43,690 nt of DNA, from IMG/VR virus record IMGVR_UViG_3300024259_000066, positions 1-43,690 of that record; one strand, 5' to 3'. This document shows positions 1,232-40,081 of the stretch, one piece after another. Source of the DNA: a virus. Numbering within the stretch: position 1 is the stretch's first letter; each line of letters starts with the position of its first letter. A model generated the notes under the pieces. It made no database searches, was not told the origin of the DNA, and worked only from the letters and a program-made list of their open reading frames with translations. Made by a program: the position numbers and the translations under genes.

Positions 1232-2014
1232 TTAGTTTTCTGTGTCGTGTTTTATGTTATAAAATTCGTCTGCTGCGTTCCACAAAATATCTTCAAGCTC
1301 ATGACTTGGAATGCCCAACTTAACATCAATGTATTTTTCTAGTCTTTTAAATGATGAAATCATTGATTCAACGTCTGGTTTTTTGCCCGTAAGATGGTAT
1401 GATGAATCCAAAAAATTACCGAAGTTTTCTTTTCCAGGATTGTGTACGCGGGCGTCATCAGATTTTTGTGGGGTTATGGGTTTCTTTTTGTTATCTAGCG
1501 GCGTAGATTCAACGTCAGCGCGCTTGTTTTTGTAATATTTCCAGACGCGCTGAGCTGACGGTGATACACCAGGCTGCCTGTCTGGCATTAATTCACCTGT
1601 TTCCGCCATGGCTATATCATACATGAGCGGACCAAAATTTTTCGATGCGGCTGGGCCATGCACCATACTAGCACCATTGCTGTTACTTGACGCTTTTTCT
1701 ATATCAATCGTCCCCATAATGAATGATTCTGCATGTCCAGCCATTCCATCTGGAAGTATCCCGGCATGGTCGTCAAAATCGGCGAGAATGTCGCTGACTG
1801 ACACTTTACTTGCGCGGGCCATATCCTTAATTTCCTGAATTAGAAAATGTATAAACATACTCCTGTCAAAAAGAATGTACAGGATGTCGCCAGGTCCATC
1901 GCGATCCTTGTATACGGCTAACGCTAAATTGTCATTCGACGCCATTTTGGCGGTACGTGCTTTTTCTTGTAGGAGAGTTGTGCGGACGAAGGTCCTGATT
2001 GATGAGATGTTCAT
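1232..2014 (-). CDS. Conserved phage protein, function unknown
   Basis: This 260-aa protein has a recognisable central block, F-G-P-L-M-Y-D-I-A-M (about residues 127-136) followed by L-M-P-D-R and R-V-W-K-Y-Y. I recall this block from other large phages as a domain without known function. The N-terminus (M-N-I-S-S-I-R, then L-L-Q-E) loosely resembles the leader shared by the island proteins. There is no ribosome-binding site before the ATG, but ATAATTA ends exactly five bases upstream, which suggests a leaderless message. It lies between the HNH endonuclease and the gp26-like gene. A structural or internal virion protein is possible; the sequence does not decide. Confidence 0.6.
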   Translation of the reverse strand: MNISSIRTFVRTTLLQEKARTAKMASNDNLALAVYKDRDGPGDILYILFDRSMFIHFLIQEIKDMARASKVSVSDILADFDDHAGILPDGMAGHAESFIMGTIDIEKASSNSNGASMVHGPAASKNFGPLMYDIAMAETGELMPDRQPGVSPSAQRVWKYYKNKRADVESTPLDNKKKPITPQKSDDARVHNPGKENFGNFLDSSYHLTGKKPDVESMISSFKRLEKYIDVKLGIPSHELEDILWNAADEFYNIKHDTEN

Positions 2015-3556: not shown

Positions 3557-4075
3557 CTAGAATCCCGACAACACAGCTTCCATTTTTTCTGCCATCTCGT
3601 CGTAATTGCTACTTCCGTTGGCACCCATGTTGACGACCTTTCTGCCGTTTACAATGATCCACCCGTTTCTGCCGTCAATTTTTATTTCTGCATCTGGGTA
3701 TCGGCGCTTGAATTTTGCCCTCAACGATTTTGCAGCAGACATTGATGCGGGACCTGCTTGGTTATAGCTTCGTTTGCGGGGCTTTCTGCCTGTCGGTGAG
3801 TAACCATAATTCTGATCGCGACCATAATTTTGTTCATTGACCTGTTTCGAAGGTGCCAGTCGATTCGTCATGATCCCATAAACGTCTCCGTTTCCAAAAT
3901 CTACGTCGGCCATGTCACCCATTTTGTGCATTTTCTTGACAGTGCCTTTCCTTGTTTTACCAAAGATCTCCGTTGTAACAATATCGCCTGGTTTTACTAC
4001 CTTTCCTACTGGTTTGGCACGCCATGGTGTGCTTTCTCGAATCAAGTTTCTAATTTGTCGTCGTGTGATTTTCAT
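3557..4075 (-). CDS. Leader-bearing protein with small beta-barrel-like segment
   Basis: This 172-aa protein begins with the shared leader M-K-I-T-R-R-Q-I-R-N-L-I-R-E followed by Ser, which fits cleavage by the gp21-type protease. The next part (V-K-P-G-D-I-V near 28, K-G-T-V-K-K-M, A-D-V-D-F-G-N-G-D near 56) has the glycine and valine spacing of a KOW or Tudor-like small barrel. The C-terminal half is basic (G-R-K-P-R-K-R) and ends in a short alpha/beta stretch with an N-G-W-I-I-V-N-G-R-K hairpin. It lies just after another leader-bearing gene, between the sheaths and the tube. I infer an internal head protein; nucleic-acid binding is possible. Confidence 0.65.
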   Translation of the reverse strand: MKITRRQIRNLIRESTPWRAKPVGKVVKPGDIVTTEIFGKTRKGTVKKMHKMGDMADVDFGNGDVYGIMTNRLAPSKQVNEQNYGRDQNYGYSPTGRKPRKRSYNQAGPASMSAAKSLRAKFKRRYPDAEIKIDGRNGWIIVNGRKVVNMGANGSSNYDEMAEKMEAVLSGF

Positions 4076-4078
4076 GGG

Positions 4079-4336
4079 TTACATCCACCTTTGTACTTTT
4101 CTATTGAGTACCTTCATCGCCTGATATTTGATTCCTGGTGCTCTAAAACCGCCGCCGATACGTTCAGCCTCATCGTCGATATACCTGATCAGTGAGTCAA
4201 TCTCTCTTTCAACGTTTGCCATAAGGTCGTCGCGCTCCTGGTCCTCATCATCAGAAACCGTGCCGTCCGCGTTCATCTCTGAGAGGATCTTCTCTTCATT
4301 GATAAGTCTTCGTAATTGTTTTTTTGTAATTTTCAC
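4079..4336 (-). CDS. Small leader-bearing protein
   Basis: This 85-aa protein starts with the shared leader (M-K-I-T-K-K-Q-L-R-R-L-I-N-E, then Glu). The start is GTG at 4336 with AGGA seven bases upstream. The body is acidic (D-G-T-V-S-D-D-E-D-Q-E-R-D-D) and then helical, ending in a basic tail. It overlaps no neighbour but is only nine bases from the sheath gene and three from the next leader-bearing gene, so all three are probably co-transcribed. The body has no recognisable domain. Confidence 0.6.
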   Translation of the reverse strand: MKITKKQLRRLINEEKILSEMNADGTVSDDEDQERDDLMANVEREIDSLIRYIDDEAERIGGGFRAPGIKYQAMKVLNRKVQRWM

Positions 4337-14960: not shown

Positions 14961-15680
14961 ATGTCACGTAGCGATCAACAATTTGAAACATTCGTCCGGT
15001 CAGTCCTCAAAGAGATCCGGGATGAAAGAAAAGGAAGTCGTGTGCTCTATCGCATTGATAAACGACCTGTCCAGGTTAGGCCTGAGCGTCGAGGTGAGGG
15101 ATGGAGCAGAGACTGGTTAGCAGGTCGGGAAGACGGCGGAATCTTTATGTCGACCAATCCGCGAGGTATTCGAGCCAACCATCACATTGTTGGTCACGTT
15201 TATGCTTATCGCGTTCCTGAGTGGGCTATCGCTAAGAGCGGTGGCTTACATCGTTTCGACTGGGGAACTGAGGTTCTTATCAAAAATGACATCTGGGAAA
15301 AAATCAAACACACCGGGGAACTCAAATTTTTGGGTAAATCAATGTCAGACGATAAACTTGACATGGATGCTTGGTATGGTGATGGTTCAGCATGGGAAAG
15401 AAGGGAAGCTGATGATTTCAGAAGAAGACAGAACAAAGATCCTGCCGTAAAATTTGAGGTAGAGTTACGGCGCATGTTGGGTTCTGCAAAGGCTGCACAC
15501 CAAGATCCGGAGCATAGCCTGCTAGGCGTCCAGATGTTATCGTTGCGTGACAGGAGGCATCGCTTTTCGATTGTCAATCAGGCGATCAAAACGGATCACC
15601 GATTCATTATACCAACAGAGTTGCCGGCATGGAAAACATTACGGGACATACTTCGAGATTCAATCGCTGAAGATTCTTAG
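14961..15680 (+). CDS. Possible ADP-ribosyltransferase-like phage protein
   Basis: This 239-aa plus-strand protein shows three elements in the order of R-S-E class ADP-ribosyltransferases: V-L-Y-R-I-D near residue 30, G-G-I-F-M-S-T-N-P near 63, and W-G-T-E-V-L-I near 106, with the conserved stretch G-H-V-Y-A-Y-R-V-P-E-W between the last two. I recall this core from many large-phage hypothetical proteins. The assignment is from motif reading only. Its N-terminus contains V-L-K-E after a short helix, which could be a variant capsid-leader cleavage site. The ATG at 14961 lacks a ribosome-binding site; a TTG at 14931 is unlikely. It overlaps the next gene tail to tail by four bases. T4 packages the ART Alt, so an injected effector is attractive. 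Confidence 0.6.
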   Translation: MSRSDQQFETFVRSVLKEIRDERKGSRVLYRIDKRPVQVRPERRGEGWSRDWLAGREDGGIFMSTNPRGIRANHHIVGHVYAYRVPEWAIAKSGGLHRFDWGTEVLIKNDIWEKIKHTGELKFLGKSMSDDKLDMDAWYGDGSAWERREADDFRRRQNKDPAVKFEVELRRMLGSAKAAHQDPEHSLLGVQMLSLRDRRHRFSIVNQAIKTDHRFIIPTELPAWKTLRDILRDSIAEDS

Positions 15681-16237: not shown

Positions 16238-16627
16238 ATGAAACACAAAACAAAACATAAGATAATCACGCCGGCGGATCTTCCTGATTACGAAGAAATG
16301 GGTGAACTGTACACTGATATGAATGACTTCCTGGGCAAAACACCGATGCTGGGGACACATATCATGCAATCTGAGTTGCCGTCCTGTCTTGTTTTTTATG
16401 TTGCTGGTGATTCCGTGCAAAGTGTTGCCGTAAGCGTTTCATCGCACAAAGACGAAATGCTATCGCTTGAAGAGCTTGTTGAAAGACAGAACGATGATGA
16501 TTTTTACGTTGTGTATAAAAACAGGGTTCCTAGCGCAACGTTCAGCCCGCGTGGTGCCCCGATCGTGGATCCAAGTAAATGTTATCGATTCAAGAAAGTC
16601 CCTGTCTACAGAGACTTTAGCATTTAG
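16238..16627 (+). CDS. Small plus-strand protein, unknown
   Basis: A 129-aa acidic protein starting M-K-H-K-T-K-H-K, chosen because GAGG precedes the ATG at a suitable distance. It has a predicted mixed alpha/beta character with the strand L-V-F-Y-V-A-G-D-S-V-Q-S-V-A-V-S-V in the middle. I recognise no family. It is one of only two plus-strand genes and its 3' end overlaps the ParB-like gene by 11 bases, tail to tail. A host-type promoter and isolation from the late cluster suggest early expression, by inference. Confidence 0.55.
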   Translation: MKHKTKHKIITPADLPDYEEMGELYTDMNDFLGKTPMLGTHIMQSELPSCLVFYVAGDSVQSVAVSVSSHKDEMLSLEELVERQNDDDFYVVYKNRVPSATFSPRGAPIVDPSKCYRFKKVPVYRDFSI

Positions 16628-17588
16628 CCAATTGGCACCAACGCTCTGTCAATAGATTCCCATCACGCTCAGCAGATTCTTTCTGTGGGCTTAATGGGCT
16701 TTTGATATTGATTTCAGCGTTCTGCAGCTTGTCATAAATCGCTGCCTTTCCAGCTTTACCGCCAATTGATTTGTCGTCAAGTTGGGGCATATCCTCTCGG
16801 GCGGGCGCTTTCGTGTTGCTTGGCACAGTTGCCAGGTTTGCCGAAATCTTCTTGATGATTTTCACGATCACTTCTTTAGGATCAGCACCTGGTTTGAAGC
16901 CTGCCCATTTTGCAATGGTCTTATCTTTTGATGAGTTCGAAACCATTTCATCGTTTAGCATTGGGCCGGGGGCTCGACGGTCTACCTGGCGTCCCACATT
17001 TGCTGCCATCATCTTTTCAATTTCGCTCGATGACTTGCCCAGAATGTTGTTTGCGATCTTTCCTGATGCTGTTGGCATATCCTGGTTTGGATCTTTGTGT
17101 GCTGCGATGGCAAGTTGAGCTGCGGCGAGTTTCTGGGTTGTGTCTCCAGGAAGCTCTAAATCTTCGGCGCTGATTACACCATCCGGTCCACTGATTGCCC
17201 ATACACCTGACCATCTATGGTGCCCATCGATCACATCATCGCCTGATACGGTAATTGAGCCGGGAGCGTCTGTTGTGTTTGAGGAGATTGCTTTTGCAAG
17301 AGCCTTTGCACTTCCCAATGGAAACGCCGCCGACTTCATCATGTCAATTTCTTTCTGTGTAGGTTTGAAATCCCGAATTTGTCTCATTGCTGGTTTTGAC
17401 ACTTTCGTCGTGTCGTCCGCTTTGACATTGTCGTGAGTGCCATGAAGGGCAGCCTTCAACTCATCCGGGTCAGGATGGTTGTCTACGAACGATCGTACTG
17501 CACCGGGTCCACCCTTGGCAGCCTTGGCAATATCGTCAGTCACATCCTCAAAAAGGACATCAACAAGTTTTGGATAACGATATGCCAT
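16617..17588 (-). CDS. ParB/sulfiredoxin-like domain protein
   Basis: This 323-aa protein contains D-D-V-I-D-G-H-H-R-W-S-G-V-W-A-I (about 117-132), the G-x-H-R signature of the ParB N-terminal/sulfiredoxin fold, which hydrolyses nucleotides or acts as a nuclease in different members. C-terminal to it are A-P-A-R-E-D-M-P-Q-L-D and a Lys-rich end. I recall the same core in other large-phage proteins that carry the M-K-I-T leader. Here the N-terminus is different (Y-P-K-L-V-D-V-L-F-E-D), though L-F-E is a possible protease site. The start overlaps the stop of the upstream leader-bearing gene, so translation is probably coupled. Activity and substrate are unknown. Confidence 0.6.
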   Translation of the reverse strand: MAYRYPKLVDVLFEDVTDDIAKAAKGGPGAVRSFVDNHPDPDELKAALHGTHDNVKADDTTKVSKPAMRQIRDFKPTQKEIDMMKSAAFPLGSAKALAKAISSNTTDAPGSITVSGDDVIDGHHRWSGVWAISGPDGVISAEDLELPGDTTQKLAAAQLAIAAHKDPNQDMPTASGKIANNILGKSSSEIEKMMAANVGRQVDRRAPGPMLNDEMVSNSSKDKTIAKWAGFKPGADPKEVIVKIIKKISANLATVPSNTKAPAREDMPQLDDKSIGGKAGKAAIYDKLQNAEINIKSPLSPQKESAERDGNLLTERWCQLAKC

Positions 17589-17902
17589 TAGTAATGCGAG
17601 TACCGTTTTGTTTCAATTGCCCTTAGCTCCCTGGCAAGGGTAAGATAACCTAGCGTATCTGCTGGCCCCGCGACTACTTCTAGCAAGGCAAGTTCAGCGA
17701 ATTCGCCACCCTCATCATCACCCAACTCATCAGCCGCATCGGCCATTACAATTTCAAGAAAATTCTCAACCTGATATTCAAGTGCAGATCGTGTTTCAAT
17801 GGGGGTGTGCATGGCTAGCGCTCGTTTGCCGACGCGTCCTTCGCTCATTTTTGATTTTTCTTTACGGATTGCTTTCCGTAATTGGTTTTCTGTTATTTTC
17901 AT
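17588..17902 (-). CDS. Leader-bearing acidic protein
   Basis: The 104-aa product starts with the shared leader (M-K-I-T-E-N-Q-L-R-K-A-I-R-K-E). The (I/V)-x-E site is shifted here: E is at 15, and M-S-E/G at 19-21 is a second possible cut. I use the ATG at 17902, where the leader begins and AGGTATC lies just upstream, not the longer frame from 17941. The body is acidic and helical (A-A-D-E-L-G-D-D-E-G-G-E-F-A-E-L). It is followed with overlap by the ParB-like gene and preceded by another leader-bearing gene. Confidence 0.6.
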   Translation of the reverse strand: MKITENQLRKAIRKEKSKMSEGRVGKRALAMHTPIETRSALEYQVENFLEIVMADAADELGDDEGGEFAELALLEVVAGPADTLGYLTLARELRAIETKRYSHY

Positions 17903-17976
17903 GATACCTGTGTCCTTTCCTGTACGCCCTAAACACGCCATTGGTAGGTTACCTAAGCGTAATGTAAAGAAGCTGC

Positions 17977-18216
17977 CTAGTATGCATCGTGTGATTGCTC
18001 GTATCCATCATCCCGAACTTGCTGCAGGGCGTATCTGAATTCTTCTTCTATGTCGGAATATGACAGACCGGTCGACAGTCCGCCCGTAATCAATGTTTTT
18101 AGATCTTCCGCAAAGAAGTTGCTTGTTTGAAAACGACCATCTGGACTTTTCATTTCTGCCAGTTTTGATTTTTCGTGGCGGATAACATTACGTAGCTGGT
18201 TTTCTGTAATCTTCAT
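17977..18216 (-). CDS. Small leader-bearing protein
   Basis: A 79-aa protein with the shared leader (M-K-I-T-E-N-Q-L-R-N-V-I-R-H-E) followed by K-S-K-L-A-E, a likely cleavage site. The remainder is helical and acidic with Y-S-D-I-E-E-E-F-R-Y. GGAG precedes the ATG and ATATTTA lies at 18238-18244, so it is probably the first gene of a transcript that includes 17588-17902 and the ParB-like gene. Confidence 0.6.
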   Translation of the reverse strand: MKITENQLRNVIRHEKSKLAEMKSPDGRFQTSNFFAEDLKTLITGGLSTGLSYSDIEEEFRYALQQVRDDGYEQSHDAY

Positions 18217-18237
18217 TCTGATGCTCCGTTACGATCA

Positions 18238-18244
18238 TAAATAT
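18238..18244 (-). promoter_or_regulatory. Candidate late promoter motif (ATATTTA)
   Basis: ATATTTA on the sense strand 21 bases before the ATG of the 17977-18216 gene, with GGAG between. Confidence 0.5.
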
Positions 18245-18291
18245 CATGTCGGGTCGCTTTATGAATATATTTTATCACACCAGCACGAAAC

Positions 18292-18981
18292 TTACACGGG
18301 CCCAACTTTCTTTGCAGGAACAGTTTTTCCGCGCCACATGGTGCCGTAGGTTTTGTTGCGCCTGTTCGGTGGGATACGGTCGCCATAAGAGTTGCTTGCA
18401 GCCAGGAATGGGGTGTGAATATGCCTCACCACCGGCCCATCATAATTCTTGTATTGTGCCATCGATGCTTTATCAACAAGCACGATGTTGTTGAACTCTT
18501 CGATGAATTGGCCAACCATGATGTCAAACCAAACAGTAAGCCCGTCCATGCGACTGAATTCTTCAGATTGAACTCGGTGCTCATAATCAGTCAGAGAGAA
18601 TTTTGTCCTCAACCTTGATGTTTCTGCGCAGCCCACACCTTCTTCATATGGGGTCTCCATTGCTTTCCATTCAAAATCGACGCCGTCAAAAACTCGCCTG
18701 ATAAGCGGAAACACATTTTGTTGGGCCAGGTTGAACGCTTCCTGATTCCACGTTCTTGGACACGAACGATGTCGGGAATGCATATCTTCAATTTCGCGCA
18801 GAATTAGTTTCGATTGATTCTCAAAAAGGATTGCGTAATTGAGAGCTTTTTCCTGAGACAGGTTGTCCAGGATTTGGGTGTGACTCCACTTACTGATGAG
18901 ATGCTGGTGATGCTGACTTAACACGGCGGGTGTCACAGTAACATCGTCATTGTTAGATTCATTTAGCATGTTAGCTGACAT
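18292..18981 (-). CDS. N-terminal-half paralogue of the gp23 major capsid protein
   Basis: This 229-aa protein aligns by eye with the N-terminal part of the capsid protein at 23471-25369: H-L-I-S-K-W against L-L-I-E-K-W, A-I-L-F-E-N-Q-S against A-R-L-L-E-S-Q-A, and V-F-P-L-I-R-R-V-F-D-G against A-F-P-L-V-R-R-V-F-G-G. A later stretch (M-V-G-Q-F-I-E-E-F-N-N-I-V-L) resembles the spine-helix region L-S-E-Q-I-A-M-E-L-D-R-E-I-L. The C-terminus is a new basic tail. The large middle of the capsid protein is missing. T4's vertex protein gp24 is also a gp23 paralogue. AGGAAT precedes the ATG. Confidence 0.7.
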   Translation of the reverse strand: MSANMLNESNNDDVTVTPAVLSQHHQHLISKWSHTQILDNLSQEKALNYAILFENQSKLILREIEDMHSRHRSCPRTWNQEAFNLAQQNVFPLIRRVFDGVDFEWKAMETPYEEGVGCAETSRLRTKFSLTDYEHRVQSEEFSRMDGLTVWFDIMVGQFIEEFNNIVLVDKASMAQYKNYDGPVVRHIHTPFLAASNSYGDRIPPNRRNKTYGTMWRGKTVPAKKVGPV

Positions 18982-19388
18982 TTTATTCCTGGGTCGACAT
19001 CGTATTTCCCGATCGGGGTTTTGAGCTGCGTATGAAGATCTGCAAGCGTCTTGTTTGCAAGTGCTTCACCATATGCCGACGCGACCTCTCCTATCGGTAA
19101 TGTGCCTGCTTTCGTTAGCTTTAGTCCGGGTGGTCCACCGACAGATGAGCAAACCACGCGCTCATCTTTGAATGGGTATGGCATTGGGTCGATTACTTTT
19201 CTTGCTGGTTGCCATGGTGGGTAATCGACTTTGGGCTCCCCTTTGAGCTCCTCCATTGTCGGTGTTACCTTTGTCAAGACCAACGCTAGGTGTGCCTTTA
19301 TCATTCGTACCTGTTCTGGTTTTACGTCGTCCGTATCAGAGATTTCAAAGAATCCCTGGAGCCAGTATGCAAAATCTCTTGCTGTCAT
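18963..19388 (-). CDS. Conserved phage protein with F-A-Y-W-L-Q-G-F-F motif
   Basis: This 141-aa protein starts M-T-A-R-D-F-A-Y-W-L-Q-G-F-F-E-I, followed by E-Q-V-R-M-I-K-A-H-L-A-L-V-L-T-K-V. I recognise this N-terminal module from many phages of different types, where its function is unknown. The C-terminal half is proline-rich and has no known domain. AGGAG precedes the ATG. Its 3' end overlaps the start of the capsid-half gene by 19 bases, so the two are probably co-expressed. Confidence 0.6.
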   Translation of the reverse strand: MTARDFAYWLQGFFEISDTDDVKPEQVRMIKAHLALVLTKVTPTMEELKGEPKVDYPPWQPARKVIDPMPYPFKDERVVCSSVGGPPGLKLTKAGTLPIGEVASAYGEALANKTLADLHTQLKTPIGKYDVDPGIKCQLTC

Positions 19389-19400
19389 TTCGTTCTCCTG

Positions 19401-19676
19401 TTATAGTCTTGGTTCGATTTGTTCTGCTGCCAATAACTCTACGGCTGTGTCGGCAAACTCAGCGAACCAAAGAACCTGATCCCAGCATTTTCGATGTACA
19501 TCAGCCCGAAAGAATGCGATTGGTTTCAAAATGCTGGGTGAATGCTCAGCAATGATGATATTTGGTGTAATGTCAATATACGCCGCGAACTTTGTTGCAT
19601 TGGTTAGGGGCTGGTACGATGCTACTTTGCGTACGATGTGAAAAGGAGCCAGGGCGAATTTTGTTAGGCGGTTCAT
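19401..19676 (-). CDS. Small protein, unknown
   Basis: A 91-aa protein without a recognised domain. It has a short central hydrophobic stretch (Y-I-D-I-T-P-N-I-I-I-A) and a helical C-terminus (A-E-F-A-D-T-A-V-E-L-L-A-A-E). The ATG overlaps the stop of the upstream gene as ATGA, so it is translationally coupled to 19673-20359. Confidence 0.5.
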   Translation of the reverse strand: MNRLTKFALAPFHIVRKVASYQPLTNATKFAAYIDITPNIIIAEHSPSILKPIAFFRADVHRKCWDQVLWFAEFADTAVELLAAEQIEPRL

Positions 19677-20359
19677 TCGTCGTCCTCGTCAATGTACTCT
19701 ATTTTGTTCATCCCGAGACGTTCCATCATGCTGTCTATAAGTTCGTCGGCACCCTCTTCGATTGGAATCGCTGGGATGTGAAATTCTTGATATAAAAGGC
19801 TGTGAAATTCTTGATGCGTTTTGCATTCGGTGTATGGTTTTAAGTCTTTTCTTTCTATAACAACGCCGGGTGCATTGAGCCTACAATATTTTGTGGCTTC
19901 GTACGCTTCATCGCTTGTCGCATAACCCGCACCTAAAATATGACCAAACTCCCAAACGGCTGCGCGCAAATCCCACTCTGGATTCATTTCCCAGCGAGGC
20001 ATGTCTCGTGAAACAACGAAAAAATTGCCTGTGGATGCGGCCGCATCTTGGTACGATATTTCGCTAGCATATACTTCTGCGCGTGTCTTGGACATATCGC
20101 ATTGAGAAGGCCAGGAATGACCCACCGGCCAGTGATTATTGCCTCCGAAAGCTTTTGCGTATTGTGTGTTCCATTCTTTGACGCACTCGTCGGCACCACC
20201 ACCGTGGTCCAAAGCGCCTTGGATAAACCCTTCCAAATTCATATTGCGGATTTCTTCAGCGATTGCTTTGACATTGCTAATCACCGGGCGTAACTTCGTC
20301 GAGAACGCAATATCCGTACCTACAACGCGAAGCGTCAACAAAAACATGGGCTTACTCAT
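19673..20359 (-). CDS. Hypothetical protein, unknown
   Basis: This 228-aa protein is acidic at its C-terminus (E-Y-I-D-E-D-D-E) and has Trp-rich central segments (N-H-W-P-V-G-H-S-W and M-P-R-W-E-M-N-P-E-W). I cannot assign a family. GGAGG lies five bases before the ATG at 20359, the strongest ribosome-binding site in this island, and a TATAAT-like element is at 20378-20383. It probably heads an operon with 19401-19676, 18963-19388 and 18292-18981. Confidence 0.55.
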   Translation of the reverse strand: MSKPMFLLTLRVVGTDIAFSTKLRPVISNVKAIAEEIRNMNLEGFIQGALDHGGGADECVKEWNTQYAKAFGGNNHWPVGHSWPSQCDMSKTRAEVYASEISYQDAAASTGNFFVVSRDMPRWEMNPEWDLRAAVWEFGHILGAGYATSDEAYEATKYCRLNAPGVVIERKDLKPYTECKTHQEFHSLLYQEFHIPAIPIEEGADELIDSMMERLGMNKIEYIDEDDE

Positions 20360-20377
20360 CACAACCTCCGTTTAGAG

Positions 20378-20383
20378 ATTATA
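20378..20383 (-). promoter_or_regulatory. TATAAT -10-like element
   Basis: The sense strand reads CATATAATCTC 19 bases before the ATG of the 19673-20359 gene, just upstream of its GGAGG site. TATAAT matches the host sigma-70 -10 box. No convincing -35 is visible, so phage middle-type or activator-dependent transcription is possible. Confidence 0.35.
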
Positions 20384-20403
20384 TGATGAATGAGCTGGAT
20401 GTA

Positions 20404-20757
20404 TTATGTTACGAAATCTAAGTGGGTGTATTTCCTGGGTGCACGCTTATTTAGCATCCCCTTACCTGCGTTTGCTGCCATGAACTGAACGAATTCTTCT
20501 TTCGTTCCCGGGCTGTCATTGTGGCTAAAATCGATGTTCATTAAGCTTTCATCAGCGTAATCTTCTGATGGGAAACGGGCCGGCGGGGAAACCCTTACAT
20601 ATGACTTGTATGGTTTGTAGCCCATCGTCTTCAAATCTTCCGGTGTCAGCGTTTCCATCCAGAGTTCACCAGACATAAACCTGAGCCAGGCCTCCGTTTT
20701 GTTTCCACCTAAGGATTCCCGAATGAGATGCCTGAGTTTGGATTCTGTGATTTTCAT
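20404..20757 (-). CDS. Leader-bearing protein
   Basis: A 117-aa protein with the leader M-K-I-T-E-S-K-L-R-H-L-I-R-E followed by Ser. The start is the ATG at 20757, which overlaps the upstream stop as ATGA; the longer frame from 20841 ignores this. The body has no known domain (L-T-P-E-D-L-K-T-M-G-Y-K, later K-E-E-F-V-Q-F-M-A-A-N-A-G-K-G). It is the last gene of an ATGA-coupled run of five leader-bearing genes. Confidence 0.6.
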   Translation of the reverse strand: MKITESKLRHLIRESLGGNKTEAWLRFMSGELWMETLTPEDLKTMGYKPYKSYVRVSPPARFPSEDYADESLMNIDFSHNDSPGTKEEFVQFMAANAGKGMLNKRAPRKYTHLDFVT

Positions 20758-20996
20758 TCGTAATCCTGGTACACCGTGTTTTGGCTTTGTTGGCCGTCTC
20801 TTCGTCTGCCGGCCACAGATCGACGAACTGCTTGAATACATTTATCAACAATCGTCGCGGCCTGATAGTGTCCTGCTTCTTCTAGTTTCCATATTGCACT
20901 GCCGAGACTTTGTATCGCCTCACTAACTAGTCGAGCTTTTTCGTTTGAGGAGGTTTCTTTTACCAGCTTCCTGAGTTGAGATTCTGTGATTTTCAT
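20754..20996 (-). CDS. Small leader-bearing protein
   Basis: An 80-aa protein with the leader M-K-I-T-E-S-Q-L-R-K-L-V-K-E followed by Thr. The body is one long helical region (A-I-Q-S-L-G-S-A-I-W-K-L-E-E-A) and a basic segment (V-R-R-S-V-A-G-R-R-R). ATGA overlaps with the genes on both sides indicate coupled translation. The C-terminal charge would suit contact with packaged DNA, but that is a guess. Confidence 0.6.
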   Translation of the reverse strand: MKITESQLRKLVKETSSNEKARLVSEAIQSLGSAIWKLEEAGHYQAATIVDKCIQAVRRSVAGRRRDGQQSQNTVYQDYE

Positions 20997-21472
20997 TGAT
21001 GCCTACCTTTGTATTTTCTTGTCGCTACAACCGGTTCTGCAAATGTAAGGACTGTCTCATACGTCGTTCTATTCCCAGAAAAGCGAGCCAATGACCAAGA
21101 ATTGCCGGAGGAATCCGTCCATGTATGTTTCGATTTAGTCCAGTTTCCGGCGGGATGATGGTCATCCGAAGCACCTGAGTGTTTGAAACCTAACGCCTCC
21201 ATCGCTTCCACCAGTTGCCAGTCAAAGAAATTCCGCAGTGTCTTCGACCATGAAACACGGGTCGCCATTCCAGGAACAGTGTCATCAACATCAGTCGATC
21301 GTCCGTTTCCTCCAGGGATTCCCGCTTTGATCGCAGCGAGCTGTTTTTCCGTTACTTCCAAACGCGTACGACTATTAAAACTGTCAGAAACAGTGATGTA
21401 CCTCTTTCGCGATGATTGCTCAGATAGCAGCTTCTTCACGACAATTTTTAGTTGTGATTCGGTGATTTTCAT
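20993..21472 (-). CDS. Leader-bearing protein
   Basis: This 159-aa protein begins M-K-I-T-E-S-Q-L-K-I-V-V-K-K-L-L-S-E; the likely cut is after L-S-E at 18 rather than at 14. The body has a region around residues 80-140 rich in Trp, Ser and His (F-F-D-W-Q-L-V-E-A-M, D-D-H-H-P-A-G-N-W) and a last stretch of beta character. I recognise no family. Both ends overlap neighbours as ATGA. Confidence 0.6.
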   Translation of the reverse strand: MKITESQLKIVVKKLLSEQSSRKRYITVSDSFNSRTRLEVTEKQLAAIKAGIPGGNGRSTDVDDTVPGMATRVSWSKTLRNFFDWQLVEAMEALGFKHSGASDDHHPAGNWTKSKHTWTDSSGNSWSLARFSGNRTTYETVLTFAEPVVATRKYKGRHQ

Positions 21473-21711
21473 TGTGACCTTCCTATCAGGGTCAGGGCAA
21501 TCGCCCGAATGACAGGCAGCTTCCCAACTTGTTCACCGTGTGTCGCGAGCTCTTTCGCAATTGCTTGACAAAACTCTTTCTTTCCCAACAGGCTTTCGAT
21601 GGCTTTTTGTTCGTCTGGGCCTAACTGATTGAATAGCTGTTCTGCCCGATCGGTTTTGCCTTCAGCTTGCTCTCGGATTAGTTTCCTGAGCTGTGTTTCT
21701 GTGATTTTCAT
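21469..21711 (-). CDS. Small leader-bearing protein
   Basis: An 80-aa protein with the leader M-K-I-T-E-T-Q-L-R-K-L-I-R-E followed by Gln. The rest is helical (A-E-Q-L-F-N-Q-L-G-P-D-E-Q-K-A-I) and ends in a hydrophobic stretch (V-I-R-A-I-A-L-T-L-I). It is too short for confident domain recognition. ATGA-type overlaps link it to 20993-21472 and 21708-21923. Confidence 0.6.
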   Translation of the reverse strand: MKITETQLRKLIREQAEGKTDRAEQLFNQLGPDEQKAIESLLGKKEFCQAIAKELATHGEQVGKLPVIRAIALTLIGRSQ

Positions 21712-21923
21712 TGGTTCTCCACCGCGGTGTCGATCGCACTACGAACAGCATCGGCTCCGATTTCATGACCGATGGAAGCCAGAATAACCTCGGCGCGCTT
21801 TAGGAACTCCAGTGCCCTGTCCATCTCATGATCCCAAGTGAAATCTGATGTTTCATTTTGGCCCCAGTCTGAGACGTGCGATTCTTTTATCAGTTTTCTG
21901 AGTTCTGATTCTGTGATTTTCAT
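21708..21923 (-). CDS. Small leader-bearing protein, first of the coupled run
   Basis: A 71-aa acidic protein with the leader M-K-I-T-E-S-E-L-R-K-L-I-K-E followed by Ser. The body is helical (M-D-R-A-L-E-F-L-K-R-A-E-V-I-L-A). It opens the run of five ATGA-coupled leader-bearing genes, and candidate promoter motifs lie 22 and 50 bases upstream. Confidence 0.6.
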   Translation of the reverse strand: MKITESELRKLIKESHVSDWGQNETSDFTWDHEMDRALEFLKRAEVILASIGHEIGADAVRSAIDTAVENQ

Positions 21924-21945
21924 TTGTGCCTCGTATATGTATCAC

Positions 21946-21980
21946 TAAATATCTAATTGCACCCGAAATTACATAAATAT
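21946..21980 (-). promoter_or_regulatory. Two candidate promoter motifs and a TATAAT element
   Basis: Within the 153-base gap 21924-22076, the sense strand carries ATATTTA at 21952-21946 and again at 21980-21974, and TATAAT overlaps the second copy (21984-21979). The gap therefore probably holds the promoter for the five-gene run, possibly for two phases of infection. The remainder of the gap is the hairpin at 22017-22048. Confidence 0.45.
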
Positions 21981-22016
21981 TATACCACACATACACGAAT
22001 ATTACATGCCAAAGAC

Positions 22017-22048
22017 GAAGGGCTCCCAGATTTCTCCAGGAGCCCTTC
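22017..22048 (-). terminator. Strong hairpin, probable terminator
   Basis: A perfect 10-bp stem (GAAGGGCTCC / GGAGCCCTTC) with a 12-base loop lies 29 bases after the stop of the 22077-22328 gene. The U-run after it in the minus direction is weak (CGTCTTTGG). It would separate that gene from the five-gene run downstream. Confidence 0.55.
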
Positions 22049-22076
22049 AAACGTTTAGCTAACCGAAGCTAGCCAG

Positions 22077-22328
22077 TCACACAGACATTGGGTCATCAAG
22101 ATCGAGACCCTCAGCATTGTAGTCCATCCAGTACAAATCAGAATCGTCGGCCTCAGACTGAATGTAGTTCATTATCTCATCCTTGCTATGACCTGTTTCA
22201 TGTTCCGCTTCGGCCCATGGGATTATGCCTGGTGATGGCGCGAGATTGTGGAGCGTTATCCAGAGATCACGACGCGAATGTTTTTGCTCTCTGATGAGTT
22301 TCCTGAGATTTGATTTTGTGATTTTCAT
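22077..22328 (-). CDS. Small leader-bearing protein
   Basis: An 83-aa protein with the leader M-K-I-T-K-S-N-L-R-K-L-I-R-E followed by Gln. The body carries W-A-E-A-E-H-E-T-G-H-S-K-D-E-I and a very acidic C-terminus (D-L-D-D-P-M). GGGG precedes the ATG by six bases, ATAATTA at 22350-22356 may be its promoter, and a hairpin follows it, so it may be an independent transcript. Confidence 0.6.
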   Translation of the reverse strand: MKITKSNLRKLIREQKHSRRDLWITLHNLAPSPGIIPWAEAEHETGHSKDEIMNYIQSEADDSDLYWMDYNAEGLDLDDPMSV

Positions 22329-23356: not shown

Positions 23357-23360
23357 ACAA

Positions 23361-23367
23361 TAAATAT
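23361..23367 (-). promoter_or_regulatory. Promoter-like motif 4 bases from the ATG (ATATTTA)
   Basis: ATATTTA on the sense strand ends four bases before the first ATG of the homing endonuclease at 22361-23356, which has no ribosome-binding site. A leaderless or nearly leaderless message is possible. Confidence 0.35.
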
Positions 23368-23412
23368 ATAGGAAATGAATGAATTGTATAGGAAAAAGAT
23401 GGTTAAAAAGGA

Positions 23413-23439
23413 AAAGGCGCCCTTTGTGGGGGCGCCTTT
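23413..23439 (-). terminator. Rho-independent terminator of the major capsid gene
   Basis: A 10-bp perfect stem (AAAGGCGCCC / GGGCGCCTTT) with a 7-base loop lies 31 bases after the capsid stop. In the minus direction it is followed by TTCCTTTTTAACC. This is the clearest terminator in the window and isolates the capsid message from the endonuclease gene. Confidence 0.85.
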
Positions 23440-23470
23440 CCAATCATCTAGTGGTAACTAGATGGTCAAC

Positions 23471-25369
23471 CTAGATAACGTTCATGTCAAGACATGTCAC
23501 AGTTCCGTAGAAATCGTTACGGACCATTTTCTTACCGTACCGAGTCATCACGCCCTTTCGAGGAGTGAAGTCTTCCGGTGCGAAGATGGTAGGAGTCACG
23601 ATCAGCGGGACGTAAGGAGCGTAGACGTATCCTGTCTCCAGGTAGCTTCCGCCCTTGTATCCAACCAGAATCTGGTTGCGTGGGAAGTAAGGGTCCTTGT
23701 AAACCGAGAATCGATTCGACAGGGTACCAACCTTCTCAGCACCGATAACCATCGGGCCAACCTGTCCGTCAGCGTCAAGCGAGAAGCTTGGCTTGTACAG
23801 GATTGAAGACTCGAAGATTGTTGCAACATCCGGGCCGACAACGATGAAGTTAGCCGAACCACGTAGCGTCTTACGATGAATCTCGTTAGCAACGTCGATG
23901 ATGGTCTCGATAAGAGTCTCGTACCACTCTCGAACTGTACCGGTGAATGCCGGGCCAGGTGTCAACGAGTTTGTACGGTTGACTTCGATACCAGTCTGCT
24001 TGTTGAGGAACTTACCTGGGCTACGTGACCAGTAGAAGCGCGCAGCTCCAGCCTGTGTCAGCAAGTCATTCAAGATCTCTCGGTCAAGCTCCATTGCGAT
24101 CTGCTCGGACAGGATGTGTGTCAGCTCAACCTCAGCGTCAAGGCTGTGGTAAGCGTTCAGGTCCTGTGCCATTTCTGGCGACCAGCGGGCACGCAACTTA
24201 CGAGTCTCAGCCACAACAGCGATTGACTCGATCTTGATGTCGATTTCTGGGATTGCAGGTGATGGGTCGACCGCGAAGTCAGACTCGAACGAAGGAATGA
24301 CCAACGTATCACCAGTGTTTGCAGCCGAATCGAGTGCAGCAGCCAATGGCTTAGCAAGCACGGTTGCAGGAGCAGCGAGGCCGCCCTGGTTAGCACCAGA
24401 CACAATCATCAAGAGCGCTGCGTTAGCATCGCCTGCCTTGACCAAGCCGTTAGGCGTGAAGTTTGTGCCGTCCCAGGTTCCCATCTGGTTCAATCGACGG
24501 ATGTTAGCTGTGCTACCACCCTGGATTGCGTTACCATTGGTGTCGTTTCCAACAACCTTGTATGGGGCCACTGGAGCCAACGAGAAGTCCTTAGACAACG
24601 TAAGGTCAGCATCACCGAAGAGCGTACCACCTGAAGCCAACGAAACCACGAGTGCGTGATATACAGCAGAACCTGTAAGAGCACCCGGTCCGCCACCAAC
24701 TGGTGCCGCGTTGTTCTCGATTGCGTTTGTGATTTGCGGGTCGTACTGAAGCAACTTGCCGTCAGAACCTGTTGCAGCCAATGTTTTAGCATTGCTGAAC
24801 ACTGTTCCGGAACCGAAAGCACCTGATGCCGACAATGAAACTGCAGCAGTCACACCGTAAACTCGAGAGTAACCCGAGCCAGCAAGGTCGTACTGACCAC
24901 CAACGCCCTGCGAACCAGACTGAACGCCTTTACCCGCTGGGCTGTTGTAAATTGACGAACCTGAAGAATAAGGTGTCGCCGCGCCGACCGAACCTGCCAT
25001 GTTTCCACCGTAGGTGTAGTCCATGTAGAAGAGCAGTCCGGAAGGAAGGCTCATTGGCTGGATCGAAACAAGGTCGTTCGCAATCAATCCACCGAAGACT
25101 CGGCGAACCAATGGGAATGCGATGTTTGTGAAACCACGAAGGTCACCAGACGAGGTTCCGTTAGCGCCACCGGTCGAAATCGATGATGCTTCCTTGATAA
25201 CCTGGCCAGCCTGACTTTCGAGCAAGCGCGCCATGTTCTCTCGTTTCGTGCCGTCAAGGCCGCGAAGAAGACCAGTACGGTTCCACTTCTCGATGAGTAG
25301 TTTGTTTTGCGAGCCGACGTGACGTTTTTGAATCCCCTCGGTTAGCATTTCTAGATTAAATGTAGACAT
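23471..25369 (-). CDS. 23: Major capsid protein, gp23-like
   Basis: This 632-aa protein (T4 gp23 is 521 aa) has the family markers F-P-L-V-R-R-V-F-G-G near 84, I-Q-P-M-S-L-P-S-G-L near 101, K-L-R-A-R-W-S-P-E-M-A-Q-D-L near 391, S-E-Q-I-A-M-E-L-D-R-E-I-L-N-D-L, and near the end D-F-Y-G-T-V. A probable protease site is V-I-K-E60/A61, matching the position and type of the T4 gp23 cut after residue 65. It builds the shell; removal of the N-terminal peptide by gp21 accompanies maturation. AGGAG is upstream, a promoter-like motif lies at 25390-25396 and a terminator follows, so it has its own transcript. Confidence 0.95.
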   Translation of the reverse strand: MSTFNLEMLTEGIQKRHVGSQNKLLIEKWNRTGLLRGLDGTKRENMARLLESQAGQVIKEASSISTGGANGTSSGDLRGFTNIAFPLVRRVFGGLIANDLVSIQPMSLPSGLLFYMDYTYGGNMAGSVGAATPYSSGSSIYNSPAGKGVQSGSQGVGGQYDLAGSGYSRVYGVTAAVSLSASGAFGSGTVFSNAKTLAATGSDGKLLQYDPQITNAIENNAAPVGGGPGALTGSAVYHALVVSLASGGTLFGDADLTLSKDFSLAPVAPYKVVGNDTNGNAIQGGSTANIRRLNQMGTWDGTNFTPNGLVKAGDANAALLMIVSGANQGGLAAPATVLAKPLAAALDSAANTGDTLVIPSFESDFAVDPSPAIPEIDIKIESIAVVAETRKLRARWSPEMAQDLNAYHSLDAEVELTHILSEQIAMELDREILNDLLTQAGAARFYWSRSPGKFLNKQTGIEVNRTNSLTPGPAFTGTVREWYETLIETIIDVANEIHRKTLRGSANFIVVGPDVATIFESSILYKPSFSLDADGQVGPMVIGAEKVGTLSNRFSVYKDPYFPRNQILVGYKGGSYLETGYVYAPYVPLIVTPTIFAPEDFTPRKGVMTRYGKKMVRNDFYGTVTCLDMNVI

Positions 25370-25420: not shown

Positions 25421-27163
25421 TTATTTGCCGGGAAGACCTGCTAGGACTGCCCATCGACCTGCATCAACGCCACTTTTGGCAGGTTGTCCTGACCGGGTTG
25501 ATCTGGAAGACGACCCGAGAGTCCTTTTTCCTTCACTCAGCATGTTGCCACCTTGGCCCCTACGAGTGAGTGACTCGGAGAGTGATTTGTAAAGCAGTTT
25601 TGCCTCACGGAGCGTCTTGGCATTATCGATCGCCTCAACAATTGCTCGCTGTTGTTTTACGGTTAGACCCTTGTTCTGGAGCAACTTGTTAGCAAACAAG
25701 AGCTTCGCGTTGAACATGTTCATTTCAACCAGTTGTTTCTTCAACTTGGTTGCCGCTGTTTTGTATGTCTTTGCTTCTTTCATAGCACGTGAGTGGCCTC
25801 GCGATGGGCGAGCTGGACGTCGCCCTCGACCTTCAGCAACTCGACGACGACCAGCTCGTCGTCGACGACTTTCAGCAACACTACCAAGCTCATCCGCTAG
25901 GACGTTGATCAGTGTGTCTTCATCGATTTCAATCACGTCACCGAGAATCTTGCCATCACCAAACTGGTCGGCCTCATCTTCAGCGGCTTCGCGAACCATT
26001 CGGCGTAGTTTTGAACGACCACGTGACTCTCGGATCTTGCGACCATTACCATTTCTCATGCGTGAAAGCTCCTTACGAAGAACCGACTCATCGATTTCGT
26101 ATACTTCATCCAAGTCGTCAGACTCTTTCAGTCCGCTCCATGCAGACTCCTCAAGGTCAACGTCCAATTCTTCGACATCGTCGAACCCTTCTTCGCCACC
26201 TTCCTCATAGTCCATTTCGTCACCACCTTCGCCAGCAATCTCAAGGTCAAGACCAAGAGCAGAGCCTAGACTCTGTAGCGCAGCAGTTGCAGCGTCGACG
26301 TCAACATCGCCTGTTGGGACGCCTTCTTCTTCGACATCCAAATCAAGCTCTTCGCCCGAATCCTCGAGCCCACCATCAAGAACCTCAACGTCCTCTCCAG
26401 TTTCTTCCTGCTCGTTCACGGCGTCGTCCGCATCTTTCTTCTTCGATTCAGCGGCATCGCCCTCGAAAAGAAAGTCGAAAATGTTCTTTTTGTATTTACT
26501 TGACATTTCTCTCATCTCCTTAATGGTAGAATTCAGCTTTGCATGAAGGCGCCGATGACCCGTTCCACTCAATTTTACTTCATTCTGCAAGGACACAGCG
26601 TCCTTAACACATGACATAAAACCCAGTTCTAATCGTTTTCTTTTAACGGTTGATAGTTTGCTCTCTCGGAGCACGCTCACCACATCGCCGAGTTTCTTAA
26701 CTCGCTTCGATAGGGCGTCGATTTTTTCTTCAAGACGGCGTGGGGCGACGAAGTCCTTATTAATAAGGGAAGCAAGAACGTTTGCGCCGGCTTCACCTAG
26801 CATCATTTCGTCGTGTGACTCTGATACGTTAATGTTTACGTCGCCTGCGGCGTGAACTGAAACAGAACCTGCCTGCGTGACTGCCTCTTGCGACGCAGCA
26901 TCTTCGAAATCAACTCCGACATCTGGCATTCCGTCGAGCATGGATTCTAGATCGTAATCGTCTTCCATTCCGCCCATCGCGCCGTCGCCGTCTTCATCAG
27001 AATCATCATCATCAACTTCGTCTTGTTCGAACAAGATTCTGTTGTTGATCATTTCCCTGATTTGCGGAGTTATCGTTTCCATAATTCGAGCCTGTGCAGC
27101 CTGTTCGGCTGCGTCTCGAATCTTTCGCGCGTCTAGCAATGCTTCGTCATATACTGTTGACAT
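25421..27163 (-). CDS. 22: Prohead core scaffold, gp22-like
   Basis: This 580-aa protein lies directly upstream of the capsid gene, as gp22 does. The C-terminal block A-K-L-L-F-A-N-K-L-L followed by Q-R-A-I-V-E-A-I-D-N-A-K-T-L-R-E-A-K-L is the conserved part of gp22-type scaffolds. The rest is highly charged: long acidic tracts (about residues 51-90 and 255-350) alternate with an Arg-rich stretch (S-R-R-R-R-A-G-R-R-R). It contains many hydrophobic-x-E/(A,S,G) sites such as I-R-E/S, V-R-E/A, L-S-E/G and M-K-E/A, as expected for a core that gp21 degrades. T4 gp22 is 269 aa. GAGG and a promoter-like motif precede it. Confidence 0.85.
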   Translation of the reverse strand: MSTVYDEALLDARKIRDAAEQAAQARIMETITPQIREMINNRILFEQDEVDDDDSDEDGDGAMGGMEDDYDLESMLDGMPDVGVDFEDAASQEAVTQAGSVSVHAAGDVNINVSESHDEMMLGEAGANVLASLINKDFVAPRRLEEKIDALSKRVKKLGDVVSVLRESKLSTVKRKRLELGFMSCVKDAVSLQNEVKLSGTGHRRLHAKLNSTIKEMREMSSKYKKNIFDFLFEGDAAESKKKDADDAVNEQEETGEDVEVLDGGLEDSGEELDLDVEEEGVPTGDVDVDAATAALQSLGSALGLDLEIAGEGGDEMDYEEGGEEGFDDVEELDVDLEESAWSGLKESDDLDEVYEIDESVLRKELSRMRNGNGRKIRESRGRSKLRRMVREAAEDEADQFGDGKILGDVIEIDEDTLINVLADELGSVAESRRRRAGRRRVAEGRGRRPARPSRGHSRAMKEAKTYKTAATKLKKQLVEMNMFNAKLLFANKLLQNKGLTVKQQRAIVEAIDNAKTLREAKLLYKSLSESLTRRGQGGNMLSEGKRTLGSSSRSTRSGQPAKSGVDAGRWAVLAGLPGK

Positions 27164-28341: not shown

Positions 28342-28620
28342 TTAGATTCGGCGACCAATTCGACGACGCAACTTTGATTTCTGCTCGCGCAATCGCTTGA
28401 GACCGCGAACCATCTTTGCTTCCTTGATCTTCAGTGCCTTGATAAAGTCAAGATCCTGCTCAAGCGTACCGGCCAGTGCGTCAGCATCAACTTCGTCAGC
28501 ATTGACATCTTCTGCTTCCTTCTTGCCCTGCTCGATCGTTTCTAGTTTTAGTTTCCTAGCCTCTTGAATGATAATCTTCTTCAGGAAGCCAGGTGTAATT
28601 CGTCGTACTCTCTTTGCCAT
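28342..28620 (-). CDS. Small basic prohead-core-like protein
   Basis: A 92-aa protein with a basic N-terminus (M-A-K-R-V-R-R-I-T), then F-L-K-K-I-I-I-Q-E/A, an acidic centre and a very basic C-terminus (L-R-R-R-I-G-R-R-I). Size and charge pattern resemble T4 core proteins gp67 and gp68, but there is no sequence motif that proves it. The N-terminal helix with x-Q-E/A is a variant of the leader seen in the island. GGAG precedes the ATG and ATATTTA is at 28652-28658. Confidence 0.6.
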   Translation of the reverse strand: MAKRVRRITPGFLKKIIIQEARKLKLETIEQGKKEAEDVNADEVDADALAGTLEQDLDFIKALKIKEAKMVRGLKRLREQKSKLRRRIGRRI

Positions 28621-28660: not shown

Positions 28661-29233
28661 TTATGGAAGTTTTTTAGTCGTCGAACGCTCTAAAACTTCG
28701 CTCCAATTCGCCGCGGCATCACCAAACAACGCATTGATGTCAAGACCGGCGGCAGCCTGGTGTTGAACAGGAGGTTGAGGCCGCCTTGTATACGCTGCCT
28801 CCGGCATGTTTTCCTGGACCATGCCATATGCATCTCGAGGGCCCGGCAAAGATGGTGCTGACATCCGAGGGACCGACGGCACATTTGTTTCGTGTTTCAT
28901 TCGTTCGCGGTACGTTGTATTCGCCGTCTCATTCAAAATACTTTGAAGCATCACATCATCGGTTGCCATCGTTGCCAAGTTTGATGTGGTATCATTTCCA
29001 CCAAAACGTTGCTGGAAAGACTCGTCCATTTGATCAAAAATGGATGTTCTTTTCTGCTGACGTTTTGGTTGACGCCGCTGTTGGCGTTGTGGGCGTCGCA
29101 ATTCTTGCACAGGTTCTCGGCGACGTGAGCCCTCAGTTAGACTTTGCTGCGGAACGCCGAGCCCCTCACTTAGAAGTTCAACGAGGCATTCCTTGATGAG
29201 ACCCTTCAACGACGCCTTTGTCATTTTTGCCAT
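28661..29233 (-). CDS. Core or internal head protein with leader-like N-terminus
   Basis: This 190-aa protein starts M-A-K-M-T-K-A-S-L-K-G-L-I-K-E, close to the shared island leader, followed by further L-L-S-E/G and S-L-T-E/G sites. Residues about 36-63 are Arg/Gln-rich (R-R-P-Q-R-Q-Q-R-R-Q) and the C-terminal half is proline-rich and probably disordered. The composition and cleavage sites suggest a prohead core or DNA-associated internal protein. Its stop overlaps nothing; the next gene upstream ends at its start codon. Confidence 0.6.
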   Translation of the reverse strand: MAKMTKASLKGLIKECLVELLSEGLGVPQQSLTEGSRRREPVQELRRPQRQQRRQPKRQQKRTSIFDQMDESFQQRFGGNDTTSNLATMATDDVMLQSILNETANTTYRERMKHETNVPSVPRMSAPSLPGPRDAYGMVQENMPEAAYTRRPQPPVQHQAAAGLDINALFGDAAANWSEVLERSTTKKLP

Positions 29234-29637: not shown

Positions 29638-30243
29638 TTACCACTCCAAAATGTCATTGAAGACTCTATCGATTCGGTCTGATTTCGTAAAGTGACGGTT
29701 TAGATCCGCCCTTGTAAAGTCGCGGCCTTCTTTCATCATAAATGCGCCCGGTGTTGAGGGCTCACTAACGAAGTCCCAACAAATTAGTTGGAAGTCGTCC
29801 TGGACAACATCATAATCACCCTCTCTACTTGTTGATCCAACGCCGCGTGAAGAGATGCCTAATGTTACACCCGATTCTACAAGACTTTGCAGGATCTTTC
29901 CGCTTGGCGTGTCTAGCAATTCGACTAGACCGAAACATGTTTTGCCGTCCATCCACGCCTTACGAATGATATGCGACGAATTTTTTAGCTCTACAACAGA
30001 TGAATCAGGATGATCGCATTCGCCGAGGGCACGGTTCTCTTTAATAAACTTCTGATAGTTTCTCACCTCACGGGAAAGAATTGACTCTGGGTACACGCGG
30101 CCGTTTTGGTTCAAGGTGTCTGCTTTTTGCAGAATACCCTTCATCACAATCTTACCGCCGTGCTGTTCACGGCTTTCCTTGATTTGATCTGCTGTATAAT
30201 CGAACTTCAGCCATTCTGTTAACAGGTTTCTACTTTTGCTCAT
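29638..30243 (-). CDS. 21: Prohead maturation protease, gp21-like
   Basis: This 201-aa serine protease has the gp21 pattern: an N-terminal G-K-I-V-M-K-G-I-L-Q-K-A-D, N-Q-N-G-R-V-Y-P near 45, the catalytic-His segment G-E-C-D-H-P (H78) and the catalytic-Ser segment G-I-S-S-R-G-V-G (S131/S132). It cleaves core and shell proteins after hydrophobic-x-Glu during head maturation. The start is the ATG at 30243 with GGAG upstream, overlapping the previous gene by 14 bases; the longer frame to 30303 lacks a ribosome site. It is the probable processing enzyme for the leader-bearing proteins elsewhere in the window. Confidence 0.9.
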   Translation of the reverse strand: MSKSRNLLTEWLKFDYTADQIKESREQHGGKIVMKGILQKADTLNQNGRVYPESILSREVRNYQKFIKENRALGECDHPDSSVVELKNSSHIIRKAWMDGKTCFGLVELLDTPSGKILQSLVESGVTLGISSRGVGSTSREGDYDVVQDDFQLICWDFVSEPSTPGAFMMKEGRDFTRADLNRHFTKSDRIDRVFNDILEW

Positions 30244-40026: not shown

Positions 40027-40045
40027 TTTAGATACCTCGCAGATA

Positions 40046-40052: not shown

Positions 40053-40081
40053 CTTGACATCGGCCATGTGGCAAATTTTTG

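Follow-up and report, generated by a model that had tools for sequence, protein, structure and literature searches.

A portable N-terminal leader, probably a capsid-targeting propeptide, on many unrelated proteins of uncultured T4-like and jumbo phages

Why should ten small and otherwise unrelated proteins of a single virus begin with nearly the same 14 residues? The question is raised by virus record IMGVR_UViG_3300024259_000066, whose whole 43,690-base stretch (hereafter, the window) holds a T4-like myovirus head and tail module that lies almost entirely on the minus strand, with genes for tail sheaths, tube, capsid protein, scaffold, gp21-type protease, portal and terminase. In T4, the internal proteins form a diverse set in which only the capsid-targeting sequence (CTS) is conserved (PMC3012670). 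Our analysis suggests that the leader of the window proteins is most likely a capsid-targeting propeptide of the T4 type, with a sequence of its own and put to greatly expanded use. All ten genes listed by the first-pass annotation are present and each starts with the leader; they lie on the minus strand, share the start MKITxx(Q)LRxxIxE and have divergent bodies thereafter (ORF, open reading frame; slashes mark candidate cut sites):

3557..4075, minus strand: leader protein of 172 residues, MKITRRQIRNLIRE/S; relatives (L350-L352) keep the leader.
4079..4336, minus strand: leader protein of 85 residues, GTG start, (M)KITKKQLRRLINE/E, second site ILSE/M; body homologues (L120, L182, L355) also bear leaders.
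17588..17902, minus strand: leader protein of 104 residues, MKITENQLRKAIRKEKSKMSE/G, site at residue 21; longer ORF to 17941.
17977..18216, minus strand: leader protein of 79 residues, MKITENQLRNVIRHEKSKLAE/M, site at residue 21.
20404..20757, minus strand: leader protein of 117 residues, MKITESKLRHLIRE/S; longer ORF to 20841; body resembles leader proteins L133, L307 and L308.
20754..20996, minus strand: leader protein of 80 residues, MKITESQLRKLVKE/T.
20993..21472, minus strand: leader protein of 159 residues, MKITESQLKIVVKKLLSE/Q, site at residue 18.
21469..21711, minus strand: leader protein of 80 residues, MKITETQLRKLIRE/Q.
21708..21923, minus strand: leader protein of 71 residues, MKITESELRKLIKE/S.
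22077..22328, minus strand: leader protein of 83 residues, MKITKSNLRKLIRE/Q.

Two of these genes need an internal start, with the leader ATG at 17902 for gene 17588 (the longer ORF opens MACLGRTGKDTGI-MKIT) and at 20757 for gene 20404; the start codon of gene 4079 is GTG. A DNA pattern for leader residues 1-9 matches eight sites in the window, against 0.00 expected from 100 dinucleotide shuffles. All ten leaders have a hydrophobic-x-Glu near their end, and in seven this is [IV]-x-E at residues 12-14, just as first described. For the other three, a nearby L-x-E, M-x-E or R-K-E had been offered; they turn out to be M-S-E (17588, ending at residue 21), L-A-E (17977, also 21) and L-S-E (20993, ending at 18), so that all three are of the hydrophobic-x-Glu type. 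Searches of the window leader proteins against PHROGs and Pfam gave no convincing match.

The leader is far from peculiar to this virus. Searching viral contigs with a degenerate DNA version of MKITxxQL[RK]x[LIVMF]I[RK]E, in which a few further residues were also allowed, yielded at least 202 leader genes in at least 119 stretches, compared with two stretches for a control with the same codons in another order, and the reversed pattern had zero matches in every record checked. Wide occurrence across phage genomes, which the first-pass annotation had proposed to look for, is thus borne out for viral contigs. A relaxed protein search collected 415 non-redundant leaders, in which information content is high up to residue 16 and nil beyond about residue 22. 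Glu14 is present in 92% of them, and in 81% of the 177 leaders that fall outside the strict pattern. Single genomes or fragments (G066, G010, G015, G027, G028, G013) carry 12 to about 25 leader genes, which are clustered. Among named isolates, a tblastn search of INPHARED with leader peptides returned nothing significant, and the pattern is absent from isolates Mel-JY01 and immuto. The idea that the leader is a bacterial feature was rejected: among 84,980 species only 14 stretches were found, all in contigs of metagenome-assembled genomes (MAGs), with gp21 in three of eight genomes, and at least the large contigs look like phage contigs binned into MAGs. One of them, NHDW01000006 (305,838 bases; L304, L309, L312, L315), is filed under a Methylococcaceae MAG; with its T4-type head module and no fewer than 23 leader genes, it is almost certainly a jumbo phage that was binned with bacterial DNA.

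What follows the leader is extremely diverse. When residues 1-22 were removed from 403 leader proteins (median length of leader proteins, 122 residues), the remaining bodies fell into 306 clusters, of which 258 were singletons, in full agreement with the earlier description of otherwise unrelated small proteins; Pfam matched seven families among 144 long leader proteins, each in one protein. The head module of the window includes the following genes:

29638..30243, minus strand: gp21-type prohead protease, the proposed cutter (phrog_207, E=1.2e-50); the ORF runs to 30303.
23471..25369, minus strand: major capsid protein with the cut motif VIKE/A (phrog_138, E=3e-72).
25421..27163, minus strand: gp22-like scaffold, the proposed docking partner (by position and similarity to relatives).
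28661..29233, minus strand: conserved core gene between protease and scaffold, MAKMTKASLKGLIKECLVELLSEG, with a related N-terminal motif (present in 43 loci of relatives).
28342..28620, minus strand: second small head-module gene with a leader-like start, ITPGFLKKIIIQE/A.

Both head-gene assignments made from the first reading hold, namely the gp21 homologue and the capsid protein, which reads V-I-K-E/A where I-K-E/A had been noted at the position of the T4 cut. In relatives, leader genes may adjoin head genes, following the capsid gene in L323 and preceding gp21 in L339. More generally, gp21 was detected in 23 of 37 leader-bearing records of at least 30 kb, compared with one strong match (three matches in all) in 27 random records (Fisher p=7e-7 for strong matches, 3e-5 for all). 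The 14 leader records without gp21 likewise lack a detectable T4-type capsid protein, terminase or portal; unrelated head types were not searched for, and the portal part of this negative is weak, as the portal model phrog_213 matched in no control. The sequence of the gp21-less leader record G013 starts within a tail-sheath gene, just past the head module, and so does that of the random record G042. The gp21-negative records thus appear to be fragments without this head module, and we rejected the notion that the leader occurs in phages lacking the head or the protease. Wherever a T4-type head module was detected in a leader record, gp21 is present too, as the proposed co-occurrence implies.

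The association with head genes would also fit proteins that dock by the same helix to the prohead core or inner capsid, yet serve as minor components of the core that, like T4 gp67 and gp68, are broken down or expelled as the head matures, rather than being injected. The gene located between protease and scaffold in relatives indeed starts with KxxxLKxxVKECLVEILxEG (43 loci), a motif related to the leader on a conserved core gene, and many leader proteins are very small; however, hundreds of unrelated, mostly singleton bodies are unlike shared core parts, and enzyme-like members (NUDIX, kinase-like, ADP-ribosyltransferase-like) are hard to accommodate, making this explanation unlikely.

The end of the leader points to the protease more directly. 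At the T4 capsid-cut position, 65 loci of relatives have the motif [LV]L[RK]E/[AQSVT], with rare variants, and the leader end [IL]I[KR]E matches it. In addition, 67% of leader proteins have a second hydrophobic-x-Glu within residues 16-25, compared with 17% in a control stretch. Where residue 22 has a hydrophobic residue two positions before it, it is Glu in 62% and Asp in 3% of cases, against backgrounds of 9% and 11%. A protease site would be expected to favour Glu over Asp in this way; an amphipathic helix would not. Homologous bodies with non-canonical N-termini offer another view of the boundary. A hydrophobic-x-Glu is found at the junction in 12 of 23 such rows, and leaders are exchanged at a fixed boundary, as in MKLTASDLRQIIQE/VTQGEMEF versus MNLKDHLIELINE/VTQGEMEF, and also in MKHLREYIRQILLE/SISLDVDV; L153 (YLNE) is one register off by inspection, and most of the other failures trace to alignments that are shifted or internal. 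In a family of 11 members (ten in G074 and one in another contig), the leaders differ (MTHLLRSLIRQVLLE/S, MNERDLRLLIKEILCE/S, MSKENLKKLLGYLLE/A), yet only 14 columns are invariant and the boundary Glu is among them. The predicted structure of a 246-residue paralogue from this family (pLDDT 85) has a helix at residues 2-16 that ends at the boundary Glu; the AlphaFold model of a 365-residue protein joining a leader and an ADP-ribosyltransferase-like domain has a pLDDT of 50.

These observations also bear on the possibility that the helix docks onto a partner other than the capsid (a replication complex, a host protein or a membrane) and that its final Glu merely reflects chance in helix composition. 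A basic amphipathic helix could bind many partners, and the link to the head is drawn from sequences, but neither the excess of Glu over Asp at the second site, nor the identity of the leader end with the capsid cut motif, nor the head-gene neighbourhood and gp21 co-occurrence would be expected of such a helix; we regard this possibility as quite improbable.

Codon analysis shows at which level the leader is maintained. In the window, the proportion of synonymous differences (pS) is 0.68 in leaders and 0.81 in bodies, and that of nonsynonymous differences (pN) is 0.24 and 0.74, respectively. In six genomes or loci, each analysed within itself, leader pS is 0.56-0.86, similar to the bodies, and pN is 0.11-0.24 compared with about 0.7. 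The leader is conserved as protein and its synonymous sites are saturated; the claim that it is repeated at the DNA level has to be abandoned, since at synonymous sites the leaders have diverged to much the same extent as the bodies. A DNA or RNA element copied ahead of genes (translation-start enhancer, promoter or recombination site) might explain why the leader always sits at the start codon, with a Shine-Dalgarno-like sequence upstream in about 93% of cases, but an mRNA element or recombination site is very unlikely because every genome tested retains the amino acids despite saturation at synonymous sites, and because leaders of unlike sequence keep the Glu boundary, and we consider a DNA-level explanation ruled out by the codon analysis.

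What, then, might the leader deliver? Besides the ten canonical proteins, the window encodes three further candidates:

1232..2014, minus strand: probable cargo with a divergent leader, MNISSIRTFVRTTLLQE/K; shares a domain with the canonical-leader protein L371:7337-7933 (E=1e-16).
14961..15680, plus strand: probable cargo with a divergent leader, MSRSDQQFETFVRSVLKE/I; homologue of the leader-bearing NUDIX protein L346:2834-4297 (E=1e-26).
16617..17588, minus strand: possible cargo, MAYRYPKLVDVLFE/DV; in L019, its homologue carries an additional leader, MKLDHSTIRRLVLEE.

Because they are homologous to leader proteins, 1232 and 14961 are probably real cargo, and the looser similarity first noticed in 1232, 14961 and 28661 now has independent support in each case (a shared domain, a NUDIX-protein homologue and a motif kept in relatives). 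Further leader-bearing proteins are found in relatives. Apart from the NUDIX protein, a leader occurs on a polynucleotide-kinase-like protein (L166:4786-5505, which matches an annotated kinase); AAA_33 and phrog_505 appear once each in the scanned set. In G074 and one other contig, leaders precede an R-S-ExE ADP-ribosyltransferase-like family in which R113-G114, S162-W163 and E223-x-E225 are invariant in 11 proteins. The R, S-x-S and ExE motifs of R-S-E clade ADP-ribosyltransferases are present, and the best 14 PDB fold matches are all ADP-ribosyltransferases, with the best E=0.02 being below significance. The RNA polymerase ADP-ribosyltransferase of phage ValKK3 was matched at E=0.017, and comparison with T4 ModA and ModB gave weak results and revealed no convincing sequence relation. 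The 257-kb G074 encodes about ten such paralogues (L369, L371, L372), several with C-terminal leucine-rich repeats, along with a second family at the same loci with the motif VYHGT...YGKGLYTV; the short leaders of both families end in L-x-E. Another family of 11 paralogues of about 160 residues, starting M..YTLIDPVTGEQ, are mostly clustered at 209600-227270 of G074 (L370, L371).

Taken together, gp21 and head-gene co-occurrence, the cut-motif match, the Glu-specific second site, the N-terminus of the core gene, leader swaps and cargo types argue for a capsid-targeting propeptide. In such a scheme, the first 14 or so residues, M-K-I-T-x-x-Q-L-[RK]-x-[IL]-I-[KR]-E, would form an amphipathic helix that docks the cargo onto a prohead core built of gp22-like scaffold and a small core protein. 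The gp21-type protease would then cut after hydrophobic-x-Glu, at Glu14 and/or a second site around residues 18-22, as motif conservation suggests, and free the mature cargo inside the head. The cargo would be ejected with the DNA and act early on host targets or defences, as the T4 precedent and the ADP-ribosyltransferase-like and NUDIX cargo of relatives suggest. Of the head loading, trimming and delivery originally envisaged, it is the propeptide cut by a gp21-type protease that the comparative evidence (co-occurrence, cut motif and leader swaps) favours; injection of the tagged cargo as effectors is, by analogy, probable.

Several points weigh against this reading. The canonical leader is patchy, the strict pattern being found in three of 15 capsid-clade records, although the pattern-negative G074 nonetheless has variant leaders. 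Co-occurrence with gp21 partly reflects shared ancestry of one phage group instead of independent events. Head loading and cleavage would be deduced here from sequences and not from virion proteins, and the suggested role in host takeover from the cargo of relatives and not of the window. By inspection, the leader and the T4 CTS (MKTYQEFIAE) have only M-K and I-x-E in common, too little to establish homology; the leader would work like a CTS, but descent from it is not shown. Finally, the residue following Glu14 is mostly Glu, unlike at the capsid site, whereas the second site is often followed by A, G or S. Since the next residue differs, the cut may be at Glu14, at the second site or at both, and in many members the second site at residues 18-22 seems at least as likely as Glu14. 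The proposed cut after hydrophobic-x-Glu thus survives, with a motif that is kept and matches the capsid cut site, but Glu14 as the sole site does not. Several cut sites per propeptide are known in T4 and SPN3US (PMC5694885).

Comparison with known systems places the leader close to T4. As a positive control, T4 IPII and IPIII start MKTYQEFIAE/A, gp24 starts MAKINELLRE/S and gp67 contains LIKEEK. Like the CTS of IPI, IPII, IPIII and Alt, the leader is a short N-terminal peptide with a hydrophobic-x-Glu end, carried by otherwise unrelated proteins in gp21 phages. However, the CTS has ten residues rather than 14 and another sequence, the leader often has a second site at residues 18-22, and a handful of tagged T4 genes compares with 12 to about 25 per leader genome or fragment, the latter known as genes only. 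The gp24 propeptide is very close to the leader end, and LIKEEK of gp67 resembles it, but gp24, gp67 and gp68 are fixed head parts, whereas the leader is a portable tag on unrelated proteins. T4 Alt is a head-packaged ADP-ribosyltransferase, and in phages related to that of the window, R-S-ExE ADP-ribosyltransferase-like proteins and NUDIX proteins bear leaders; the likeness to Alt is by description, no convincing relation to ModA or ModB was seen, and the enzymes are known from relatives rather than shown for the window itself. Packaged ADP-ribosyltransferases and Nudix proteins have been proposed to be common in myoviruses (PMC9503650). In SPN3US and phiKZ-like giant phages, inner-head propeptides are cut after x-x-Glu, with several sites per propeptide, and the SPN3US paralogues gp53 and gp54 have an identical 15-residue start (PMC5694885). 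Those propeptides differ in being mostly longer than 100 residues and in their protease motif, and that work describes no broad family of unrelated cargo (PMC5694885).

As a kind of system, capsid targeting is known from T4 (PMC3012670, PMC9958956). We did not find the leader sequence, its frequent second site, the number of tagged genes or the spread in uncultured T4-like and jumbo phages described in the open-licence literature searched, and a search for the leader letters in open-licence PMC returned no paper. We lean towards the broader view that a large group of uncultured, mostly environmental T4-like and jumbo phages load up to about 25 unrelated proteins each by a generic, evolvable head address (a 14-residue core, often with a second cut site). 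On this view, the virion would serve to inject many proteins at once, and searching for the leader would bring to light very many so far unrecognised early-acting phage effectors. If so, capsid targeting would be a general, expandable delivery route reaching beyond the handful of T4 proteins, and N-terminal searches of metagenomes could pick out whole sets of proteins that phages bring in with their DNA. With only seven Pfam families, one protein each, among the 144 proteins scanned, these would be a barely explored reservoir of proteins that probably act in host takeover and counter-defence. A short portable tag would also be useful for loading proteins into phage heads.

Some further features of the head modules were observed. 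Capsid proteins in L320-L325 start M..FTLxQLTEGIRQR, recalling ITxxQLRK of the leader; speculatively, the capsid N-terminus and the leader may dock on the same scaffold surface. L320:13111-16966 (record G010) contains a tandem pair of nearly identical full-length capsid genes, and a small basic protein, bS21-like by eye, is encoded in the head module at L323:12338-12556 and at the same place in L321, L324, L326, L329 and L332. Two diverged capsid-protein paralogues lie within the island of the window on the minus strand, one at 15677-16183 (capsid residues 446-526, E=1e-12) and the other at 18292-18981 (capsid residues 18-95, E=3e-10), the latter keeping a cut-like LILRE/I; they may be cargo derived from the capsid protein, or what remains of a second capsid gene. 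Four homing-endonuclease-like genes lie between structural genes on the minus strand, at 2141-2944 and 22361-23443 (zinc-finger types), 39217-40176 (TnsA-like, weak) and 41639-42637 (NUMOD3 and TnsA-like nuclease domains).

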